From IMG/VR virus record IMGVR_UViG_3300037504_000387, positions 1 through 23,188 of that record: DNA of 23,188 bases, one strand, 5' to 3'. The first letter of the stretch is position 1, and every line of letters starts with the position of its first letter. This document shows, one piece after another, positions 8,389-20,193 of this stretch. A model generated the notes under the pieces. The model was not told where the DNA came from, ran no database searches, and saw nothing but the letters and a program-made list of their open reading frames with translations. The DNA comes from a virus. The translations under genes were made by a program, and so were the position numbers.

Positions 8389-8400
8389 TGCATGTTTCCT

Positions 8401-8406
8401 GGGAGG
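8401..8406 (+). promoter_or_regulatory. Ribosome binding site that sets the start at 8413
   Basis: GGGAGG lies 6 nt before the ATG at 8413. An earlier in-frame ATG at 8392 would overlap this site and adjoin the hairpin, so it is unlikely to be used. Confidence 0.65.
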
Positions 8407-8412
8407 GATACG

Positions 8413-9864
8413 ATGTCTCAGACTGTTAACACTGATGATGCCGTCCTTGACGGCCACCCCGACATCCAGATTGCGCGCCGCACCTCCGTGAAGCTGGCGC
8501 AGAAGCCAAAGATTTACGTGGCGATTCCTATTGGCGCGAAGCCGGTTAACAATGTGTTGCCGTGCCCGGGTTGTGAGAAGACTTACGAGGTCAACGCCGG
8601 CCACACTTCGCCGTTCCTCGTGCCGGTCCACTTCATGCTGAACCACATGAATTGGGTGCCGCCGCTGAACGTTAGTATGTCCTACGGCATCAAGACGGGT
8701 GTGCGCTCCCCGGTGGCGCGCCAGATCATGACGCAGGAGGCTATTCGGCAGGGCGCAGAGTACATCTTTTACGTGGATGACGATACGCTGATTCCGCCGC
8801 TGGGGCTGTACACGCTGTACAACTTCATGGAGCGGAACCCCCACGCCGGCGCGGTTAGCGGTGTGTATACGACGCGCGAGAATCCCAACGAGCCGCTCAT
8901 CTACAAGGAGCATGGCCAGGGTTGCGCGTGGGACTTCGAAATGGGACCGGACGCCGAGCCGGAGTTGATCTTTGGGGCCGGCGCGGGCTGTCTGCTGGTG
9001 CGCGTGCAGGCGATCAAGGACTGGATGGCGGCCAATCCTGACGTGCCCATTTGGGCCGACTCCAAGGATGTCGGCAATAAGAAGGGCGAGCAGTCGGTCA
9101 TGTGGGGCCACGACATCCGGTTCTGCCGCGAGTTGAATAAGCACGGCTGGCCGGTCTATGTCGACGGTCGGGTGCTGTGCGGGCATTATGACATCAAGAC
9201 GGGTAAGTTGTTCGAGGTTCCGCAGGACGCGCCGGGTTTCCAGAAGGTGAAAAGTCGCAACATCAACACGGCCAGCTACTGGGATCAGGTGTATAGCAAC
9301 GAAGGCGCGGACACGTGGCGTAAGTATCCTGAGATGTTCCAGAAGATCACTGACGAGGTGATGGAATTCAAGAAGAAGGACATCGCCCCAGAGCACCACA
9401 CTGAGGTGATCGAACTCGGATGTGGGGTTGGAATCCTCGGAAGCAAGCTGACTGCTGAGACGGGGGTGGCTTGGCTCGGCTTCGACTTGTCCCCAGTGGC
9501 GGTCGAAATGTGCAAGGCACGTTTCTTGAATGCGCACGTTAAGGATGTGCGTGACATCGAAGCGCACCAGCTTGGCACGCATCGCCACACGTGCTTGGTT
9601 ATGTCGGAAACCCTGGAGCATCTGGACCGCGATGATGGCGTGCGGCTGCTGAGCAAAATGCGCCAAAGTGAAGCCAGCAAGATTATCCTGACTACGCCGG
9701 ATAACTGCATGGGGCCGGACGAGGTGCCGGAGCATACAGCAAAGTTCAACGAGTCTTATCTTGGTGGCATGTTGCTGGACGCCGGTTTTGACGCCAATAA
9801 TTGGGATATGCGCGTCGACAGTGCGGACAAGCATCACATGATCGCGACGCTGGAAAGGAAGTAA
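8413..9864 (+). CDS. Glycosyltransferase-like / SAM methyltransferase fusion
   Basis: A 483-residue soluble protein with two apparent enzyme domains. Residues ~33-265 read as a GT-A (family 2-like) glycosyltransferase. There is an acidic DxD-type VDDDT at 121-125 after a beta-strand, a helix with RSPVARQ before it, FGAGAGCLLV at 187-196, and a late WGHDIRFCRELNKHG (231-245) ending near LCGHY (255-259). Residues ~330-480 read as a class I methyltransferase: VIELGCGVG at 332-340 (motif I), GFDLSP with acidic D358, SETLEHL at 398-404, TTPDN at 427-431. CPGC at 51-54 may hold a metal but lacks a second Cys pair. The gene stands between a terminator-like hairpin and a tailspike gene (1-nt gap). 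A role modifying virion or host glycans is inference; donor and acceptor are unknown. Confidence 0.82.
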   Translation: MSQTVNTDDAVLDGHPDIQIARRTSVKLAQKPKIYVAIPIGAKPVNNVLPCPGCEKTYEVNAGHTSPFLVPVHFMLNHMNWVPPLNVSMSYGIKTGVRSPVARQIMTQEAIRQGAEYIFYVDDDTLIPPLGLYTLYNFMERNPHAGAVSGVYTTRENPNEPLIYKEHGQGCAWDFEMGPDAEPELIFGAGAGCLLVRVQAIKDWMAANPDVPIWADSKDVGNKKGEQSVMWGHDIRFCRELNKHGWPVYVDGRVLCGHYDIKTGKLFEVPQDAPGFQKVKSRNINTASYWDQVYSNEGADTWRKYPEMFQKITDEVMEFKKKDIAPEHHTEVIELGCGVGILGSKLTAETGVAWLGFDLSPVAVEMCKARFLNAHVKDVRDIEAHQLGTHRHTCLVMSETLEHLDRDDGVRLLSKMRQSEASKIILTTPDNCMGPDEVPEHTAKFNESYLGGMLLDAGFDANNWDMRVDSADKHHMIATLERK

Positions 9865-9865
9865 T

Positions 9866-12154
9866 ATGGCGACGTTGTGGGTCAGTACCAGCGGGAACAA
9901 TGCGAACAGCGGATTGACGTACGCGCTGGCCAAGGCGGACTTGTGGACAGCCATCGGGGCAGCGTCACAAGGTGATACGATCAACGTCGTGAACGACGGA
10001 GATCATGCTTTCACTGATTTTAATGGCTATTGGAATGTTGGTATTCTCGACAGCACTTTCGAAGGTACCAGCTGGTCTGACCCCGGCCTTGTGATTCGCG
10101 GAACGGACAGTAGTGGTAACAAAGCGTTGACTACGTTCAAGCCGGCGAATTCTTCTGATGTGTACGGCTTGCGAATCTTGTCCGGAGCATCAGCGAACTA
10201 TATTCACATCGAAGGCTTGAAGTTCGACTATTCTGACTTCATTGGAACCCAACTTGGCGAACAGGCTATTGAGCTAGTCGGTGCGACCGGTAATGTACGT
10301 ATATACGACTGCGAGTTCGTTAAAGGGTTTGATGTCAATACCAACACTGGTGACAACATCGGCGCATTCGGCATCATTCAGTCTGGTAGTGGTTTTTCCG
10401 CCAGTTCTCCCACAACGGTTGAAATTGCGCGATGCGTGTTCAACGGTCTTGTGCGTCCAGTGACTATTGGCTCTTATAACGACGATGTCGAATATGTTCT
10501 GCATCACTGTGTGTTTGTTTTCTATCCTGATTCCAGTGGGGCGCAAGAGTCGTTAGTTGTTATGCTTAACAACAACTTTGCGGATTCTCCCAGTCTAGGC
10601 CGTCGATACTATAAGAATACGTTTGTTGTGCGTTCGGTGGATGCCGAAGACTTGCAGTCCGTAATGGTTCATTCTTCTGGTGATGACACTTCTGGCCTGA
10701 GTATTTACGACAATCTTTTACTGGTGGACTGCGGCACGAGTGTCAGCAGTGATGGTCTTAGCGGTTCTATCATGCGCGGAGGCAGTTCGGCGTCTCAAAC
10801 AAGTGCGGTGACGTTTTCCAACAATGCATTCATTCTTGGACCCAACTTGGCTGCGAAAACTGGAACATGGAGTACCAACGGCTACGCTTCGTACCAGATG
10901 AACCATAATTACCGTGACGGTGTTTCTTGGAGTGCTGACGATGAAGATCCCGATCAGTTTTACTCTACGGCTTCGGGATTTCTGAGTGATGTCTTCAATA
11001 GTACGGCCGCGTGGACCTGGACGCCAGATGCGTATGATCACGACTTGCCGTTCGATGCGCGGCCAACGGTCTACCGAACTTCTGCCATTGATGGCGGTCC
11101 GGTTGGGGCAGTCTCCGAGGTCATTAATGAGCCGCCAGTAATTTCTAGTGACTGGAATAGTGCGCTGCTGCCTGAAACCCTTGGCCCCGGCGAAACGGTG
11201 ACGGTGACGGCCGGCGACGGACTGGCCACGGTTTGCTCGGACGCAGATAGCGCCACACTGACCTATGACGTTATCGATGATGTCACGCATGGCTCATTGA
11301 CTTTGAATACAACAGACGGATCGTTTGAATATACAGCCAACAGTACGTACGCTGGCAGCGATTCTTTTTCGTTCAAAGTATGCGATGCGTCGACTTGCAC
11401 GACCGAAATTGTGAGCATACCGGGGCAGAATCCCAAGGCTTTTTTCTCGGTCGAAAACACGCCTCCGTCCTTGTCTGATTATCTGATGTTCTCGGTCGGC
11501 GAGAATGGCGTGCTGACAGTGGGCGCGGCCAATGGTTTGCTGAGCGTGGCGTCGGATCCCAACAGCGAGCAGACCCTCAGCGTCACCAACGTCACCGGCC
11601 CCAGCAATGGCACCTTGACGTATAATTCGACGACCGGCGCTTTTGAATACACCCCCGACACGTTCTTTGTCGGCTCGGATCTGATCGAGTATTTCGTGAC
11701 GGACGGCATCACGAACTCCGGGACTGGACTGGTTTATCTCACGGTTAACGAGGCTGCTCCGGCTGCCCGGGCCGGCGACTTCATCGACACGGCCCCGTTC
11801 TTCCGGCCTATCTTGCGGCTTGATGCTAACGTGCGCTACCACGGAAAGCGGAATCGCCGCACCAAGCAGGATTTGCGCCGCTACATCGAGGGCGAGTTGT
11901 GGGAGGAATCCACCCACAGATACTTCAACTTGGCTACGAACACCACCCAAGAAATCAACTTGGGCGGAGTTGCCGACGCGCAGCACTTGATCGTCGAAAG
12001 CGACACTCAAATTGGGGTGTCCGTGAACAGCGCCAGTAATTTCGTCCAGGTGGATGGAGTACTGGGCATTTTGAATACTGCTGTTACTTCTCTTTACGTC
12101 CAGAACAGCAGCACTGACACAACCGCGCGAGTTGTCGTACTCGCCGTAGACTAG
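9866..12154 (+). CDS. Tailspike-like protein: beta-helix, two cadherin-like domains, conserved C-terminal domain
   Basis: A 762-residue protein likely exposed on the tail and binding the host. Residues 1-~410 look like a right-handed parallel beta-helix (opening with WVSTSGNNANSG, then many short strands with Asn/Ser/Gly turns). Residues ~422-515 and ~532-626 are two tandem cadherin/Ig-like repeats, each with a 'G(S/T)LT..(T)TG.FEYTP..(F/Y).GSD' pattern. Residues ~670-762 match the free-standing protein encoded at 2090-2470 (motifs ESTH, LATN, LYVQN). No catalytic residues were identified, so depolymerase activity cannot be claimed. The ATG is 1 nt after the previous stop, behind a GGAAAGGAAG tract (9852-9861). 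Codons in the beta-helix part are more A/T-ending than in the capsid block. Confidence 0.78.
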   Translation: MATLWVSTSGNNANSGLTYALAKADLWTAIGAASQGDTINVVNDGDHAFTDFNGYWNVGILDSTFEGTSWSDPGLVIRGTDSSGNKALTTFKPANSSDVYGLRILSGASANYIHIEGLKFDYSDFIGTQLGEQAIELVGATGNVRIYDCEFVKGFDVNTNTGDNIGAFGIIQSGSGFSASSPTTVEIARCVFNGLVRPVTIGSYNDDVEYVLHHCVFVFYPDSSGAQESLVVMLNNNFADSPSLGRRYYKNTFVVRSVDAEDLQSVMVHSSGDDTSGLSIYDNLLLVDCGTSVSSDGLSGSIMRGGSSASQTSAVTFSNNAFILGPNLAAKTGTWSTNGYASYQMNHNYRDGVSWSADDEDPDQFYSTASGFLSDVFNSTAAWTWTPDAYDHDLPFDARPTVYRTSAIDGGPVGAVSEVINEPPVISSDWNSALLPETLGPGETVTVTAGDGLATVCSDADSATLTYDVIDDVTHGSLTLNTTDGSFEYTANSTYAGSDSFSFKVCDASTCTTEIVSIPGQNPKAFFSVENTPPSLSDYLMFSVGENGVLTVGAANGLLSVASDPNSEQTLSVTNVTGPSNGTLTYNSTTGAFEYTPDTFFVGSDLIEYFVTDGITNSGTGLVYLTVNEAAPAARAGDFIDTAPFFRPILRLDANVRYHGKRNRRTKQDLRRYIEGELWEESTHRYFNLATNTTQEINLGGVADAQHLIVESDTQIGVSVNSASNFVQVDGVLGILNTAVTSLYVQNSSTDTTARVVVLAVD

Positions 12155-13643: not shown

Positions 13644-15818
13644 ATGGCTACTACCAGACAGGTTATTGAAGTTAACCCTGTTCGGTCCGGTTTAGCCACG
13701 GCCGGCAAACAGGGCGTGATCCAGGAAACGCAGCTGTGGCAGGCCAAAAACATCAGCGTCGGCTTGGACGGCGGCCTCATGAAGCGCCCGGGTCTGCGGA
13801 AATGGGGCCAGACTCTCAAGGTAGCGTCCGGGGAGATGATCTTTAGTCCGCTATTTTTTGATAACGAAATCCTCACGGAATACAAGCCCAGCGATTACGT
13901 GACGGCCAACAACCAGAATGGCTTGTGGCGGGTGTCGGTGGATGCGAACAGCGGGGCCGCCGAGACAGCTACGTACGGCAAGGCTCTCACGGAACCCAGC
14001 GGCTGGAGTACGTCGACGTGGGGCGTTCGGTGGGTGCATCGCGTCACGGACTGGCAGTCTGGCCAGTGGTACCAAGTCGGGGCTCGCGCGCAGACCACGG
14101 ACGATATGTACGCTGTGCGGATCTACGATGACGGGGTGTACCTCTACGACGGCTCAGATTGGCTTGTGTGCCACGCTGTGAACTTCCCGGACGTGGGGCC
14201 GTCCAGCATAGAGATCGTCTACGACGGCTCAAATCTGGCCGTGTACGTGAACGATGAGTTGGTTTGCACCGACAGCGCCCCAAGCGCCGTCACCGCCGAC
14301 GACTCCAGCACTCATATTGAATTCACGTTCTCAGCTGATTATGATGACCCGGCTACGCTGTACTTCTCCGACGTCCTCATGGGTACTGGCGACGAGCCAT
14401 TCACGGAAAGCACCGCCCGTGATGGAATCGATTACGAATTGTTCGCGGAGGACTTGACGCGGCGCAGGCGTCTCATTTTGGCTACAGATTCTCGTCTGTA
14501 CGTGGATTATGACCTGCGGAACGTGTGGACCCCGGTACTGGATCTGGATCAGGAGTCCATTTACCTGACGAAATTCAGCGACAAGATCATCGTATTCGAC
14601 AGCGGCAAGGTCTATGCTTGGGACACCACCGAGGCACCGACGTTGCTGGAGGATGCGCCGCCGGTGCGGTTTGGCGGCGAGTACAAGCGCCGCTTGTTTG
14701 CCGCCGGTAATCCGCGCCACCCGCGCCGCATTTACTTCACGGCCCTGAATCAGGAAGAGGTGTGGTTCTCGCCGGAAGATGACGTCACGGGCGAAGAGAC
14801 GGTGGACGAGGTGCTAGACGCCGGGTTTATTGCGGTGCCGGGCCAGGATGGCAGTATTGTGACGGCTGTGTACGGCGACTTCTACGGCACGTGCATCTTC
14901 ACGACGTTTACTGGCATTGGCCGCATCAACGGCTCCAGTCCGCTGTCGTTCACACTGGAGTACGTCAGCAGCAGCGACGGAGCCGCCGGACCGCGTTGTC
15001 TGGCGCGTGTTGGCAATGACCTGTGGATCGTGGGCCAGCGAGGTGTCACGACCTTGCAGACCGTCATGGAGTTCGGGGACATCCAGACCAAGCAGCCCAG
15101 CGCCACCATCGCAGATATGTGGTCGTCGTTTCCGAATTCGCCTATTCGTGTCGATTTGAATCGGCTAAGCGAGGCCAGCCTGACCTGGAGCCCCACCGAA
15201 AGCTTGGTGTATTTCTGCTTCCGACCAGTTGGGCGTAGTGGGGTCGATACGGTATATGTCTTCTCGGTCTTAAATGGTTCTTGGTACGGGCCGTGGACTT
15301 GCGACAGCACGTTCGTGCGCACGGTCGTGATCGACTCTCCCACGACTTATGTGGTGATGCACGGCACGACCGGGAAGGTGGGCACTACTAGTGCTTATTT
15401 GAAGAGTGACTACGGCAATCCCTACACGGCCACGGTCGAGTCGGCTCTTATGTCGGGGCGGTCGTTGGGCCAGCAATTGAATTCGCATCCCAAGCGGTGG
15501 CGGAGATTGCACTTGCACATCGCGCCGATGGGCGCATGGGATCTTAATATTGAATGGTATGTTGATAACGAAACGTCTGAAACCATCACCGAGACGCAGA
15601 ACCAGTATGACTCGCCGGTGCTTTCTGACGACTTTCGTTTGGATGTCGACAGACTGGGATCGCGTCAGTTGGTGTCCATTATCCCGGTGAAGCTTGATAT
15701 GCGCGGGCATTATTTCAAGTTCTCCGTCAGCACGGCCGACGATGAGGACAACGAAGATTTCGTGCTGCATGGGTACGAAGTAGAGTTCTTGGTGGATTCA
15801 GATGAGGAGATTGGCTAA
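13644..15818 (+). CDS. Tail nozzle-like protein (tail tubular B / P22 gp10 role) with inserted lectin-like domain
   Basis: A 724-residue protein right after the adaptor-like gene (stop TAG and start ATG abut; only a weak GTGGGG site). The N-terminus has the hallmark of short-tailed phage nozzle proteins: the 'NISVGLDGGLMKRPGL' stretch near 36-51, like the 'N....GGL.RRPG' signature. Residues ~270-600 show repeated beta-blades (LYVDYDLRNVWTPV, KVYAWDTTEAP, DLWIVGQRGVTTLQ, VYVFSVLNGSWYGPW), fitting the propeller-like nozzle core. Residues ~95-250 look like an inserted concanavalin/LamG-type sandwich (around WYQVGARA, MYAVRIYDDGVYLY, LAVYVNDELV). Such an insertion is not part of the minimal T7 protein and may bind host glycans; this is inferred. 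The next gene overlaps the stop by 1 nt. Confidence 0.78.
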   Translation: MATTRQVIEVNPVRSGLATAGKQGVIQETQLWQAKNISVGLDGGLMKRPGLRKWGQTLKVASGEMIFSPLFFDNEILTEYKPSDYVTANNQNGLWRVSVDANSGAAETATYGKALTEPSGWSTSTWGVRWVHRVTDWQSGQWYQVGARAQTTDDMYAVRIYDDGVYLYDGSDWLVCHAVNFPDVGPSSIEIVYDGSNLAVYVNDELVCTDSAPSAVTADDSSTHIEFTFSADYDDPATLYFSDVLMGTGDEPFTESTARDGIDYELFAEDLTRRRRLILATDSRLYVDYDLRNVWTPVLDLDQESIYLTKFSDKIIVFDSGKVYAWDTTEAPTLLEDAPPVRFGGEYKRRLFAAGNPRHPRRIYFTALNQEEVWFSPEDDVTGEETVDEVLDAGFIAVPGQDGSIVTAVYGDFYGTCIFTTFTGIGRINGSSPLSFTLEYVSSSDGAAGPRCLARVGNDLWIVGQRGVTTLQTVMEFGDIQTKQPSATIADMWSSFPNSPIRVDLNRLSEASLTWSPTESLVYFCFRPVGRSGVDTVYVFSVLNGSWYGPWTCDSTFVRTVVIDSPTTYVVMHGTTGKVGTTSAYLKSDYGNPYTATVESALMSGRSLGQQLNSHPKRWRRLHLHIAPMGAWDLNIEWYVDNETSETITETQNQYDSPVLSDDFRLDVDRLGSRQLVSIIPVKLDMRGHYFKFSVSTADDEDNEDFVLHGYEVEFLVDSDEEIG

Positions 15819-17437
15819 TGGCTATTGAATTCCCCACCTTCAGCACGAAAGAGCGGCTGACGGCCGAAAAGCTAAATGCCTGGGTGTCGACGCTGGAGGA
15901 CAAGTTCAACGCCGGCTTCGGCAGCACTGACATCACGTGGCCGTTGCTGGCCGACAACAACCTGAATATGGGCACCGGATCGGATGCGTACGCCATCCTC
16001 GGCGGGTCCAAGATCATGAAGGTTGTTAATGCCGCGTCGTATGCCACGCTTGAAGCCGCATGCGCGGAGGCTGGGTCCAGCGGGGCCGTGTTTATCCCTC
16101 CCGACACGACTGTACCGACAGATGGCGCGACTCTGCCCGCCACGGCTGCCATCATTGGTGCTGGACCCTCCTCCGTCATCAAAGCTAACGCCGGCGCGAC
16201 GTACATCATGCAGACGCCCAGCATGGGTAAGCTTTTTCTGGCGAATTTGAAGATCGACGGCAACTCGGCATCGGCCACGGCTGTGGGGTTGCGTCTGGTT
16301 AACGCGGCCCAGCCTATCATCAGTAATGTGATCTTCGACGATTGCGGCAGCTACAGCATTGAACTGGACACCACCCCGGATCAGGTGGTGATCAACGGAT
16401 GCCAGTTCCATGATGGCGGTACTGATTTCATTTACGGCGACTCTATTGATGGATTGTCAGTGACCGGTTGCGTGTTTGAAGATAATCCAGATTGCGCTAT
16501 TAATCTGGTGGCGGCCGGTGGATCTACGACTTTGCGCAATATCTCTATCGTAGGCAACTATTTCTTCGATATCGATGATGAAGTTATAAAGATCATTGGC
16601 AGCGGATCTTATAACCTACAGCGCGATGGCGTCAGTATCTGCAATAACCAGATTGATCATCGAGGTGATGCCGGAGACACAATTGTTTGCGGCAGTACTG
16701 CCGGGCAGATGCAGAATGTGAATATATCCGGCAATAACGTTACTGATCCTGCTAACAGCGGCATTTCCGTGTACGCCAGATATGCGTTGATTTCTAATAA
16801 TAACATGCCTAGCGCCGACCAGCACGGCTGCGACTGCACTTCGTCGGCGTATATGATGGTTAACGGAAATAACTTTTACAATGCCAGCAACGTAGGCGTG
16901 CGGGCCGTTAACGTTGGCACTGATGTAGTGGTATCCAACAATAACGTGTTGAGTTGCAACACCGGCATTACTTATCCGGCCGACATCACATTATTCAGTA
17001 ATGCCGGCGCAATTCCGGCCACCGGTTACTATTCGACTAATACCAGTTCTTTAAATATCCCAGCTAATAGTCTGGAAGTCGGCTCGCGTATTGTGATTCA
17101 AGCAACTCTGTCAATGGATGGCGGCACAGACACAGTTGATAGTGCTGATCTTAGCGTTGATTCTACTAACGTATTGAGCGGACCGGCTGTTGACACTACT
17201 ACGGTAGCTTCTTCAGATTATGATAGTTTCGCACATCTGGAGGGCATTGTTACGGACACCACCACCATCGAATATCATGGATTCGTTGTTGCTGATGATA
17301 GTGGAGCTTCGGCAAGATCGGGTTCCCTCAGCGGGCTGTCTTTCTCTTCAGATATTGCTGTGGGATTCTCCGCGTCGGCGGCCACATATACTTCTGGCAA
17401 CTTGTCCGTGAAAATCACGACCGCTGAGGAAGTGTAA
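15818..17437 (+). CDS. Second tailspike: N-terminal tail-binding segment, right-handed beta-helix, beta-sandwich C-terminus
   Basis: A 539-residue protein coupled to the nozzle gene by TAATG, with GAGGAG at 15804-15809. Residues 1-~35 (FPTFSTKERLTAEKLNAW) resemble the short N-terminal segment by which tail fibres attach to the phage. From about residue 67 the pattern 'SYATLEAACAEAG...AVFIPP' is the usual entry into a pectate-lyase-type beta-helix, continuing with regular Asn/Gly/Ile coils to ~400 (NISGNNV, VVVSNNNV). About 405-539 is a Ser/Thr/Asp-rich beta-sandwich, perhaps for trimerisation or host binding. Enzymatic residues cannot be assigned, so 'depolymerase' would be speculation. Much of the coil region uses A/T-ending codons, unlike the capsid genes, suggesting exchange of host-range modules. 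Confidence 0.83.
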   Translation: MAIEFPTFSTKERLTAEKLNAWVSTLEDKFNAGFGSTDITWPLLADNNLNMGTGSDAYAILGGSKIMKVVNAASYATLEAACAEAGSSGAVFIPPDTTVPTDGATLPATAAIIGAGPSSVIKANAGATYIMQTPSMGKLFLANLKIDGNSASATAVGLRLVNAAQPIISNVIFDDCGSYSIELDTTPDQVVINGCQFHDGGTDFIYGDSIDGLSVTGCVFEDNPDCAINLVAAGGSTTLRNISIVGNYFFDIDDEVIKIIGSGSYNLQRDGVSICNNQIDHRGDAGDTIVCGSTAGQMQNVNISGNNVTDPANSGISVYARYALISNNNMPSADQHGCDCTSSAYMMVNGNNFYNASNVGVRAVNVGTDVVVSNNNVLSCNTGITYPADITLFSNAGAIPATGYYSTNTSSLNIPANSLEVGSRIVIQATLSMDGGTDTVDSADLSVDSTNVLSGPAVDTTTVASSDYDSFAHLEGIVTDTTTIEYHGFVVADDSGASARSGSLSGLSFSSDIAVGFSASAATYTSGNLSVKITTAEEV

Positions 17438-20193
17438 TGGCTAGAGTCTTTGCAACCGACGATATAAACCTCCAGGGCCACCACATTGTGGACTGGCGTT
17501 GGTTGAATGATATCCCGACGTCGGGTGCCAGCAGCGGCCACGTACTGGCGTATATCGACGGCGACGTGCAGTGGGCGGCCGTCACCAGCGGCGGCATTGC
17601 GTCCGTCAGCTACGAGGATTTGGCAGATGTGCCGACGGAATTCACCCCGGAAGCGCATACGCATCCTTGGTCCGAGGTGACGGCCAAGCCCTCCACATTC
17701 CCGCCCAGCACGCACACGCACACGGTGGCAGAAGTGACCGACTTCCCCGCCACCTGGGCGTGGACGGACTTGACAGGCGTGCCAGATATCGTCAACGACG
17801 TGACGGCCGGTACTGGCATAAGTCTGAGCGGCAACACCGGGTCTGTGGCCATTATCTGCAATTTAACCTGGAGTGAACTTTCGGACAAGCCATCCGAGTT
17901 TACGCCCGAAAGTCATACACATACAGTGGCGGACGTGACGAACTTCCCCACCACGTGGGCATGGACAGATTTAACCGGAGTGCCCTCGCTGGTGAATAGT
18001 GTGTCGGCGGGTACTGGCATTGGCGTGAGTGCCACCACCGGCAACGTGACAATCACGAACGCCATGACCTGGGGCACGTTGCCCAACAAGCCCACGGAGT
18101 TCACGCCAGAGGACCACACGCACGTCGTCACGGACATCACCGACTTTCCCACCACGTGGGCCTGGACGGACTTGTCCGGCGTGCCGAATCTCGTCAACAG
18201 CGTGACAGGTGGTTCGGGCATCAGTTTGAGTAACAATACCGGCGATGTAACGATCACGAACTCGATGACTTGGGGTACGCTGCCCGACAAGCCAACGGAG
18301 TTCACCCCTGAATCCCACACGCATACGGTGGCTGACGTAACAAACTTTCCCACCACTTGGGCTTGGACCGATCTGACTGGCGTGCCGAGTCTGGTGAACA
18401 GCGTGTCGGGCGGGACGAATGTCAACGTGAACACTAGCACCGGCAACGTAGTGATCTCCGTCACCAATGTCGCGGTGACCTTGACGGCCGGCACCTATAT
18501 CGACATTAACGGCACGACCATTTCGGTTGACAGCACCAGCGTGGCTTCGTCCGGGCACACGCACACGACCGGTGACATCAGCGATTTCCCCACGGATCTG
18601 GTCAACACGATCAGCACGTCCGGTCCGTTGTCGGCCAGCACCAGCACAGGCAACGTGACGCTGACCAATAGCATGACGTGGGGCACTTTACCGAACAAGC
18701 CCAGCACTTTCAGTCCCAGCACTCATACGCACGGCTTTGACGACATCACCAATACGAACCTCAATAGTGCGGATGATTTGAACACGTTGACGACTCCAGG
18801 CATTTACAACTGGACTAGTAGTGTTCCGTCCAACGCTCCTGGAAGCGAGCCTTATAAAGTATTGATCGTCACGGAGGATGCGAGTCAGGCAATCCAGATG
18901 GTCTTCGGCGGTGCTGGCACTCAGCGGGTCCACTTGCGCCGGCGAGATAGCGGCACTTGGTCGGCGTGGTCAGAGACTTCGATGGTCGGCCACACTCACA
19001 CGACGGGCGACATCACGAACTTCCCCACGAACCTCATTCAGACAGGCGACGATGCTTCGTTGAATAGTCTGGACGTGAACCTCACCTTGGATGCGGGCAT
19101 TGTTCGTTCCGATGGCGATGTCTACGTCAACTACGATGGGGGAGACGCTGACAGCAACATCTACTTCTATGATGGCGGATCTTCTACAGGACAGAGGATT
19201 TATTGGGACGACAGCGCCAGCCGATTTGTTGTCACTGGGGATTGGATCAGTACTGGGGATTTTGGAGCAAACGGAAACCTTCGGGTTAATCGGGATGCTA
19301 CAACCAATGCGTTTGTGTATTTCACTCAGAACAATAACTATCTTCAGTGGGATGCTTCTCTTTCTGAGTTCGCATTCAACAACAGACTACGTATCGACGC
19401 TGGCTCGGTTAATCTGGCGTTGGCTTTGGAAAGTTCGGACAGTACCTGTAAAATTCAGATGGTGGATTCTGGTGGGTATGGCGATGTCAGTCTTACTGGC
19501 AACACCCTCTATCTTTATCCGGGCGGCAATGTGGCGCTCGCAGCGTATAATAATCAGAATGTTCGAGTGTACAACAACCTGCTGTGCGACGATGACATCT
19601 ACATTAACTACAATGGCCCAGAGGGCACCGGCAGGTTGTATTTTTATGACGGCGGGTCGATAAGTGGGGAATATCTTGAGTGGGATGATGCCAATGATCG
19701 GTTCGAGTTCAGTGACGACTTGACTGTTGCCGGAGACATTAGCTCTTCCGGTGATGTGTTGGTAAACGGGTATGCGGTGCCGAGTTCGGATTCGGACGTT
19801 GTTACCGCAAACACGGATAGCAGTGGCAGCAACGTCACCATCTTGGGTCCGTTGACTCTTGACGATGGTTATTGGATGTTCGAGGCGGTCTTTCGGATCT
19901 ATTCGTCTGCTGGAGAAAACACCATCATTGGGTTGTCCGCCGGTTCTAATATCACGTACGTGAATTGGACGGAGATGTCGAAGGCGGGAACCAACAATCA
20001 CATCTGGTACAATAAGTTCAATACCACATTCATCCAGATGGGTTCGGGGCAGAACAAGATGGCGATCATTAAGGGCAACATCACTTCCACCTCTACTGGC
20101 GACACGTTCAGCATCTACTTCAGGCGTGGGGGAACAAGCGGCTACAGTCGCGTCTACGCAGGGTCCAGTCTCAGGTGTTGGAAGGTTGGATAA
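17437..20193 (+). CDS. Long trimeric tail fibre with 67-residue repeats, HxH motifs, pyocin-knob-like domain and C1q-like end
   Basis: A 918-residue fibre, coupled by TAATG to the tailspike gene. The first ~60 residues should attach to the tail. Residues ~60-430 carry 67-residue repeats with His-Thr-His at 74, 93, 160, 227, 294, 374 and 430; an eighth is at 519. In fibres such as T4 gp37, HxH triplets from three chains bind a metal ion along the axis. Residues ~440-515 (LNTLTTPGIYNW to GTWSAWSE) match the pyocin-knob pattern, a glycan-binding fold. Residues ~559-780 hold three degenerate beta-repeats (DVYVNYDG, IYFYDGG, WDD..RF). Residues ~809-918 (DGYWMFEA to LRCWKVG) look like a C1q/TNF-type receptor-binding tip. 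No chaperone gene follows directly. Confidence 0.85.
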   Translation: MARVFATDDINLQGHHIVDWRWLNDIPTSGASSGHVLAYIDGDVQWAAVTSGGIASVSYEDLADVPTEFTPEAHTHPWSEVTAKPSTFPPSTHTHTVAEVTDFPATWAWTDLTGVPDIVNDVTAGTGISLSGNTGSVAIICNLTWSELSDKPSEFTPESHTHTVADVTNFPTTWAWTDLTGVPSLVNSVSAGTGIGVSATTGNVTITNAMTWGTLPNKPTEFTPEDHTHVVTDITDFPTTWAWTDLSGVPNLVNSVTGGSGISLSNNTGDVTITNSMTWGTLPDKPTEFTPESHTHTVADVTNFPTTWAWTDLTGVPSLVNSVSGGTNVNVNTSTGNVVISVTNVAVTLTAGTYIDINGTTISVDSTSVASSGHTHTTGDISDFPTDLVNTISTSGPLSASTSTGNVTLTNSMTWGTLPNKPSTFSPSTHTHGFDDITNTNLNSADDLNTLTTPGIYNWTSSVPSNAPGSEPYKVLIVTEDASQAIQMVFGGAGTQRVHLRRRDSGTWSAWSETSMVGHTHTTGDITNFPTNLIQTGDDASLNSLDVNLTLDAGIVRSDGDVYVNYDGGDADSNIYFYDGGSSTGQRIYWDDSASRFVVTGDWISTGDFGANGNLRVNRDATTNAFVYFTQNNNYLQWDASLSEFAFNNRLRIDAGSVNLALALESSDSTCKIQMVDSGGYGDVSLTGNTLYLYPGGNVALAAYNNQNVRVYNNLLCDDDIYINYNGPEGTGRLYFYDGGSISGEYLEWDDANDRFEFSDDLTVAGDISSSGDVLVNGYAVPSSDSDVVTANTDSSGSNVTILGPLTLDDGYWMFEAVFRIYSSAGENTIIGLSAGSNITYVNWTEMSKAGTNNHIWYNKFNTTFIQMGSGQNKMAIIKGNITSTSTGDTFSIYFRRGGTSGYSRVYAGSSLRCWKVG
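17713..18516 (+). repeat. Four 201-bp (67-codon) units within the tail fibre gene
   Basis: Units begin at the His-Thr-His codons at 17713, 17914, 18115 and 18316. The conserved AWTDL tryptophan codon recurs at 17761, 17962, 18163 and 18364, exactly 201 bp apart. The protein is highly similar between units; the DNA differs at many third positions. The second half of the last unit is divergent. Confidence 0.85.
19111..19740 (+). repeat. Degenerate beta-repeats in the distal shaft of the fibre
   Basis: Two clear copies (residues ~559-605 and ~718-768) share DVYVNYDG/DIYINYNG, IYFYDGG/LYFYDGG and a WDD..(S/D)RF motif. A weaker copy lies at ~613-658. They are similar at the protein level, not obviously as DNA. 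Confidence 0.65.

Follow-up and report, generated by a model that had tools for sequence, protein, structure and literature searches.

Protein-identical repeats with saturated synonymous differences in a phage tail fibre gene

Results

The fibre gene and its repeat array

The window (the whole stretch of 23,188 nucleotides analysed here, positions 1 to 23,188 of the 23 kb virus record IMGVR_UViG_3300037504_000387) carries terminase, SU10-type portal (PF23899), major capsid and tail genes, including a tail fibre gene with a four-unit repeat array of 67 residues per unit (Table 1). The fibre protein scores 45 bits against PF12789 over its whole length, above the curated cut-off of 27, while no single stretch reaches this cut-off by itself, as expected of a short repeat. 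The array spans 17671-18474 and includes one unit (unit 0) upstream of those first described in the earlier note. Each unit carries a variant of the motif KP-x-E-F-x-P-x-x-HTH...FPTTWAWTDLTGVP...VN and continues into a glycine-rich linker. HxH occurs eight times in the fibre, where it is expected to form metal-binding sites of a trimer; an AlphaFold2 run on the array gave an unusable model (pLDDT 37).

Table 1 Positions of the fibre gene and its repeats in the window
Feature	Position	Strand	Basis or remark
Tail fibre gene, 918 aa, PF12789 phage tail repeat-like	17437..20193	+	ORF; Pfam E 1.1e-11; tail PHROGs
Repeat unit 0, 67 aa, core 17695-17805	17671..17871	+	26/37 core residues match those of units 1 and 3
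Repeat unit 1, 37-aa core 17896-18006 identical to that of unit 3	17872..18072	+	Sequence comparison of units
Repeat unit 2, core 18097-18207	18073..18273	+	29/37 residues match those of units 1 and 3
Repeat unit 3, 37-aa core 18298-18408 identical to that of unit 1, second half diverged from it	18274..18474	+	
Three more, divergent HxH motifs at 18556, 18724 and 18991	18556..18999	+	

Third-position GC (GC3) alternates along the cores of units 0 to 3 (0.84, 0.62, 0.89 and 0.68), the values of units 0 and 2 exceeding the expectation for the gene (P 0.03 and 0.005, respectively). A second, diverged type of repeat (VNYDG...YFYDGGS...WDD...RF) lies in the C-terminal half of the fibre at 19117-19230 and 19591-19704, and is found in the fibre of a relative too. 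The gene preceding the fibre (15818-17437) encodes a right-handed beta-helix domain of the kind typical of tail spikes, making the two genes adjacent candidates for receptor-binding proteins.

Repeated KP-x-x-F-x-P-x-x-HTH units are likewise found in other PF12789 fibre or minor tail proteins, such as those of Streptomyces phage Sentinel and Arthrobacter Marthavirus. There the unit is a bare 19 residues, whereas here it is 67 residues with a TWAWTDLTGVP extension and the glycine-rich linker. Cultured phages match this fibre only weakly (under 38% identity among the matches listed), and the sole sequence match in the PDB, to the tail collar fibre gp4 (9d93; E 1e-8), is short and partial and lies over the HxH units.

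Two units share an identical protein core

As the earlier note reported, positions 17908-18006 and 18310-18408 encode one and the same peptide, ESHTHTVADVTNFPTTWAWTDLTGVPSLVNSVS, with 18 of the 33 codons different, every change synonymous (76/99 bases identical), and with two serines that change codon box (AGT/TCC and TCG/AGT). The identity starts four residues earlier than was first noted, at EFTP, and thus covers 37 residues, with 21 codons different. It does not extend to the rest of the unit, which differs in protein (49/67 residues identical between units 1 and 3 overall). The middle unit (18109-18207) differs in both protein and DNA, as had also been observed: it matches either unit at 25 of 33 residues, of which 17 are recoded relative to unit 1 and 11 relative to unit 3. 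Across the array, sibling units differ at 8-13 of the 37 core residues.

The nearest relative that we found is contig IMGVR_UViG_3300017989_000188, whose portal is 75% identical. When the flanking genes of the two phages were compared in windows of 37 residues, 17 of 2,973 windows were identical, and at least half of the codons had changed in four of these 17, each of which lies in the portal gene. The notable feature of units 1 and 3 is an identical protein at saturated silent sites, a combination that is uncommon even among conserved genes.

Codon differences match random codon choice

We compared the units with 2,000 randomisations of synonymous codons within the fibre gene. Independent codon choice predicts 20.0±2.6 differing codons over the 33-residue stretch, where 18 are observed. 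Over the 37-residue core, 21 of the 35 degenerate codons differ, compared to 22.7±2.7 in the shuffles (P of at least as many 0.80), although a single pair of 35 codons gives low power to detect selection against DNA identity. The codon difference between units 1 and 3 is ordinary saturation, indistinguishable from random codon choice.

These comparisons bear on one of two explanations proposed in the earlier note, that synonymous changes were favoured because RecA-type recombination deletes identical repeats. Despite their identical proteins, the cores of units 1 and 3 share no DNA run longer than 8 bases, and exact direct repeats across the full fibre gene reach at most 14 bases. However, shuffled genes give similar runs, both in the core (mean 12.0, P(≤8) 0.23) and gene-wide (mean 16.7, P(≤14) 0.32). 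Nor do the differences between units 1 and 3 exceed random expectation, and the six unit pairs pooled fall below it (128/237 silent differences compared to 150.8±7.7, P 0.0045). Pooled silent sites are thus more alike than random, owing to residual homology. Units 0 and 2 also have more codons in common than random choice would give (7/22 differ, P 0.002) while differing most in protein (24/37 identical), and silent and protein distances rank the units differently.

A survey of 184 distinct related fibre-type ORFs, a convenience sample mostly collected with degenerate patterns, gave a similar picture. We identified 72 exact repeated peptides of at least 15 residues in 30 of these ORFs, ranging from DNA-identical to codon-saturated. 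The codon-saturated pairs (31 in 22 ORFs; pairs from the same fibre are not independent) were centred on randomness, with a mean z of 0.004 and two of 31 above 1.64. Non-saturated pairs are younger, and ten fibres retain shared DNA runs of at least 25 bases. A signal of diversification to avoid recombination, either differences above random or runs below it, was found neither in the shuffles nor in the fibre survey, and we consider selection against DNA identity highly improbable. The present case is ordinary except in one respect: its 37-residue peptide is the longest identity in the survey that is saturated over its entire length. An identical peptide in another fibre (L058) is longer but includes a 33-base identical run, and a further fibre (L152) has a 32-residue identical peptide with 21/29 codons different. 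Among the papers covered by a literature search, none gave a direct precedent for phage fibre repeats whose codons have diverged naturally.

Units are no closer at silent sites within the phage than between phages

Between this phage and its nearest relative, orthologues have 0.42-0.63 of their shared degenerate residues recoded. For units 1 and 3 the silent distance is 0.60, which falls inside this range and is therefore no higher than that of flanking genes, an outcome that the earlier note had set in advance as counting against its reading. The fibre of the nearest relative shares this N-terminus (74% over 53 aa) but contains only two HxH units and lacks the FPTTWAW array, and a more distant relative (3300040801_002304, L003) has three units before its contig end, compared to eight motifs here. 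Unit number therefore varies among relatives, as the note had proposed to examine.

At silent sites, unit 2 is as near to the last unit of L003 (L003_c; 13/30 differences) as to unit 3 (14/30), while units 1 and 3 differ at 21/38, although few units were available for this comparison. Concerted evolution or gene conversion is thus not supported: judged by silent sites, the units of this phage lie no nearer to one another than to those of other phages. A dimer duplication, with units 0-1 copied to 2-3, would suit the GC3 alternation and the codons common to units 0 and 2, but protein distances disagree. A tree of eight units (123 bases) had no supported branch from which to read the duplication order.

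Serine switches point to partial convergence

The two box-switched serines fall at positions that vary among units, with residues T/S/D/S and D/S/N/S across units 0 to 3; siblings and relatives together have T, D and A at one position and D, N, T and S at the other. A switch between serine boxes otherwise requires a two-base change (PMC6872785), while at these positions each box is one step from the codon of a neighbouring residue (for example, AAT to AGT). Because both serines occupy variable positions, at least these two are likely to be convergent rather than kept, and part of the identity between units 1 and 3 is probably convergent.

In 128 instances of the motif, core residues 14 and 16 covary (V14-N16 versus I14-D16; odds ratio 8.8, p 0.0005, uncorrected for relatedness), which suggests coupled subtypes, to one of which units 1 and 3 may both belong. 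A more speculative extension, which we regard as unlikely, is that discrete, internally coupled subtypes alternate along the shaft and that units of the same subtype converge from different codons, such that shaft geometry rather than ancestry sets the sequence.

Discussion

The best explanation, in which we have good though not full confidence, is that these repeats are old or separately acquired, with saturated silent sites and a favoured protein sequence that was either kept or restored. The fibre shaft would consist of homologous HxH units that are old on the timescale of silent-site turnover. Selection on the protein would favour a particular core, both for packing and for the metal-binding HxH turn that a trimeric fibre is expected to have, and units would have kept this core or returned to it while silent sites were randomised neutrally. 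Units may also have been gained, lost or exchanged over time by birth and death, without homogenisation by gene conversion, and selection at the DNA level would be unnecessary to account for them. Some observations count against this reading. Because sibling units differ at many core residues, constraint is not uniform across units, and the reading does not fully account for the match between units 1 and 3 wherever other units vary. The ranking of units 0 and 2, close at silent sites but most distant in protein, also fits it poorly.

The other proposal of the earlier note, an old duplication under very strong protein constraint, survives in part. Silent sites are indeed saturated, and as distant as those of flanking orthologues. 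However, a frozen constraint is incomplete, the serine switches point to convergence and the units may come from different phages.

This last scenario, in which units were acquired separately by recombination, codons reflect the donors and both units carry a similar preferred core, is possible but on balance doubtful. It overlaps with our preferred reading, which admits separate acquisition as one source of old units. In its favour, GC3 differs among unit cores, with units 0 and 2 above the gene expectation, unit 2 resembles the last unit of L003 as much as it does unit 3, and a contig that is otherwise unlike this one (L006) encodes HTHQVADVTNFPTTWAW in one of its units, a sequence near that of units 1 and 3. 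Conversely, GC3 of units 1 and 3 falls inside the range of the gene, and the search for a donor of the exact core was negative. Among other viral contigs the nearest unit agrees at 73% of 44 residues, and none of 26 candidate stretches from genome contigs could be confirmed as a relative.

Polyubiquitin, in which tandem units of identical protein carry many synonymous differences owing to purifying selection together with birth and death (Nei et al. 2000, as cited in PMC10457151), is a close parallel. As there, identical residues (37/37) coexist here with random-like codon differences (21/35), units of the same genome are not nearer at silent sites than those of other genomes, and unit number varies. 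The parallel is incomplete, as whole 76-aa polyubiquitin units are nearly frozen across species, whereas identity here covers part of the unit and two of four units. Concerted evolution is also documented for polyubiquitin in some species, with no sign of it in this fibre. The array is thus a clean, small example in which identical protein repeats need not imply recent duplication or gene conversion, and in which striking codon differences can be mere saturation. Codon shuffles within the gene, combined with a survey of like fibres, provide a simple way to tell saturation apart from selection against repeat recombination.

Two further features of the record lie outside the fibre. A single ORF at 8392-9864, with capsid genes on one side and tail genes on the other, fuses a glycosyltransferase family 2-like part to a methyltransferase part and is conserved in both relatives at about 70% identity. 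Lastly, a small ORF after the terminase (2090-2470) resembles the C-terminal part of a 762-aa ORF (9866-12154) that carries Ig/cadherin-like domains, a domain seemingly used twice in this phage.
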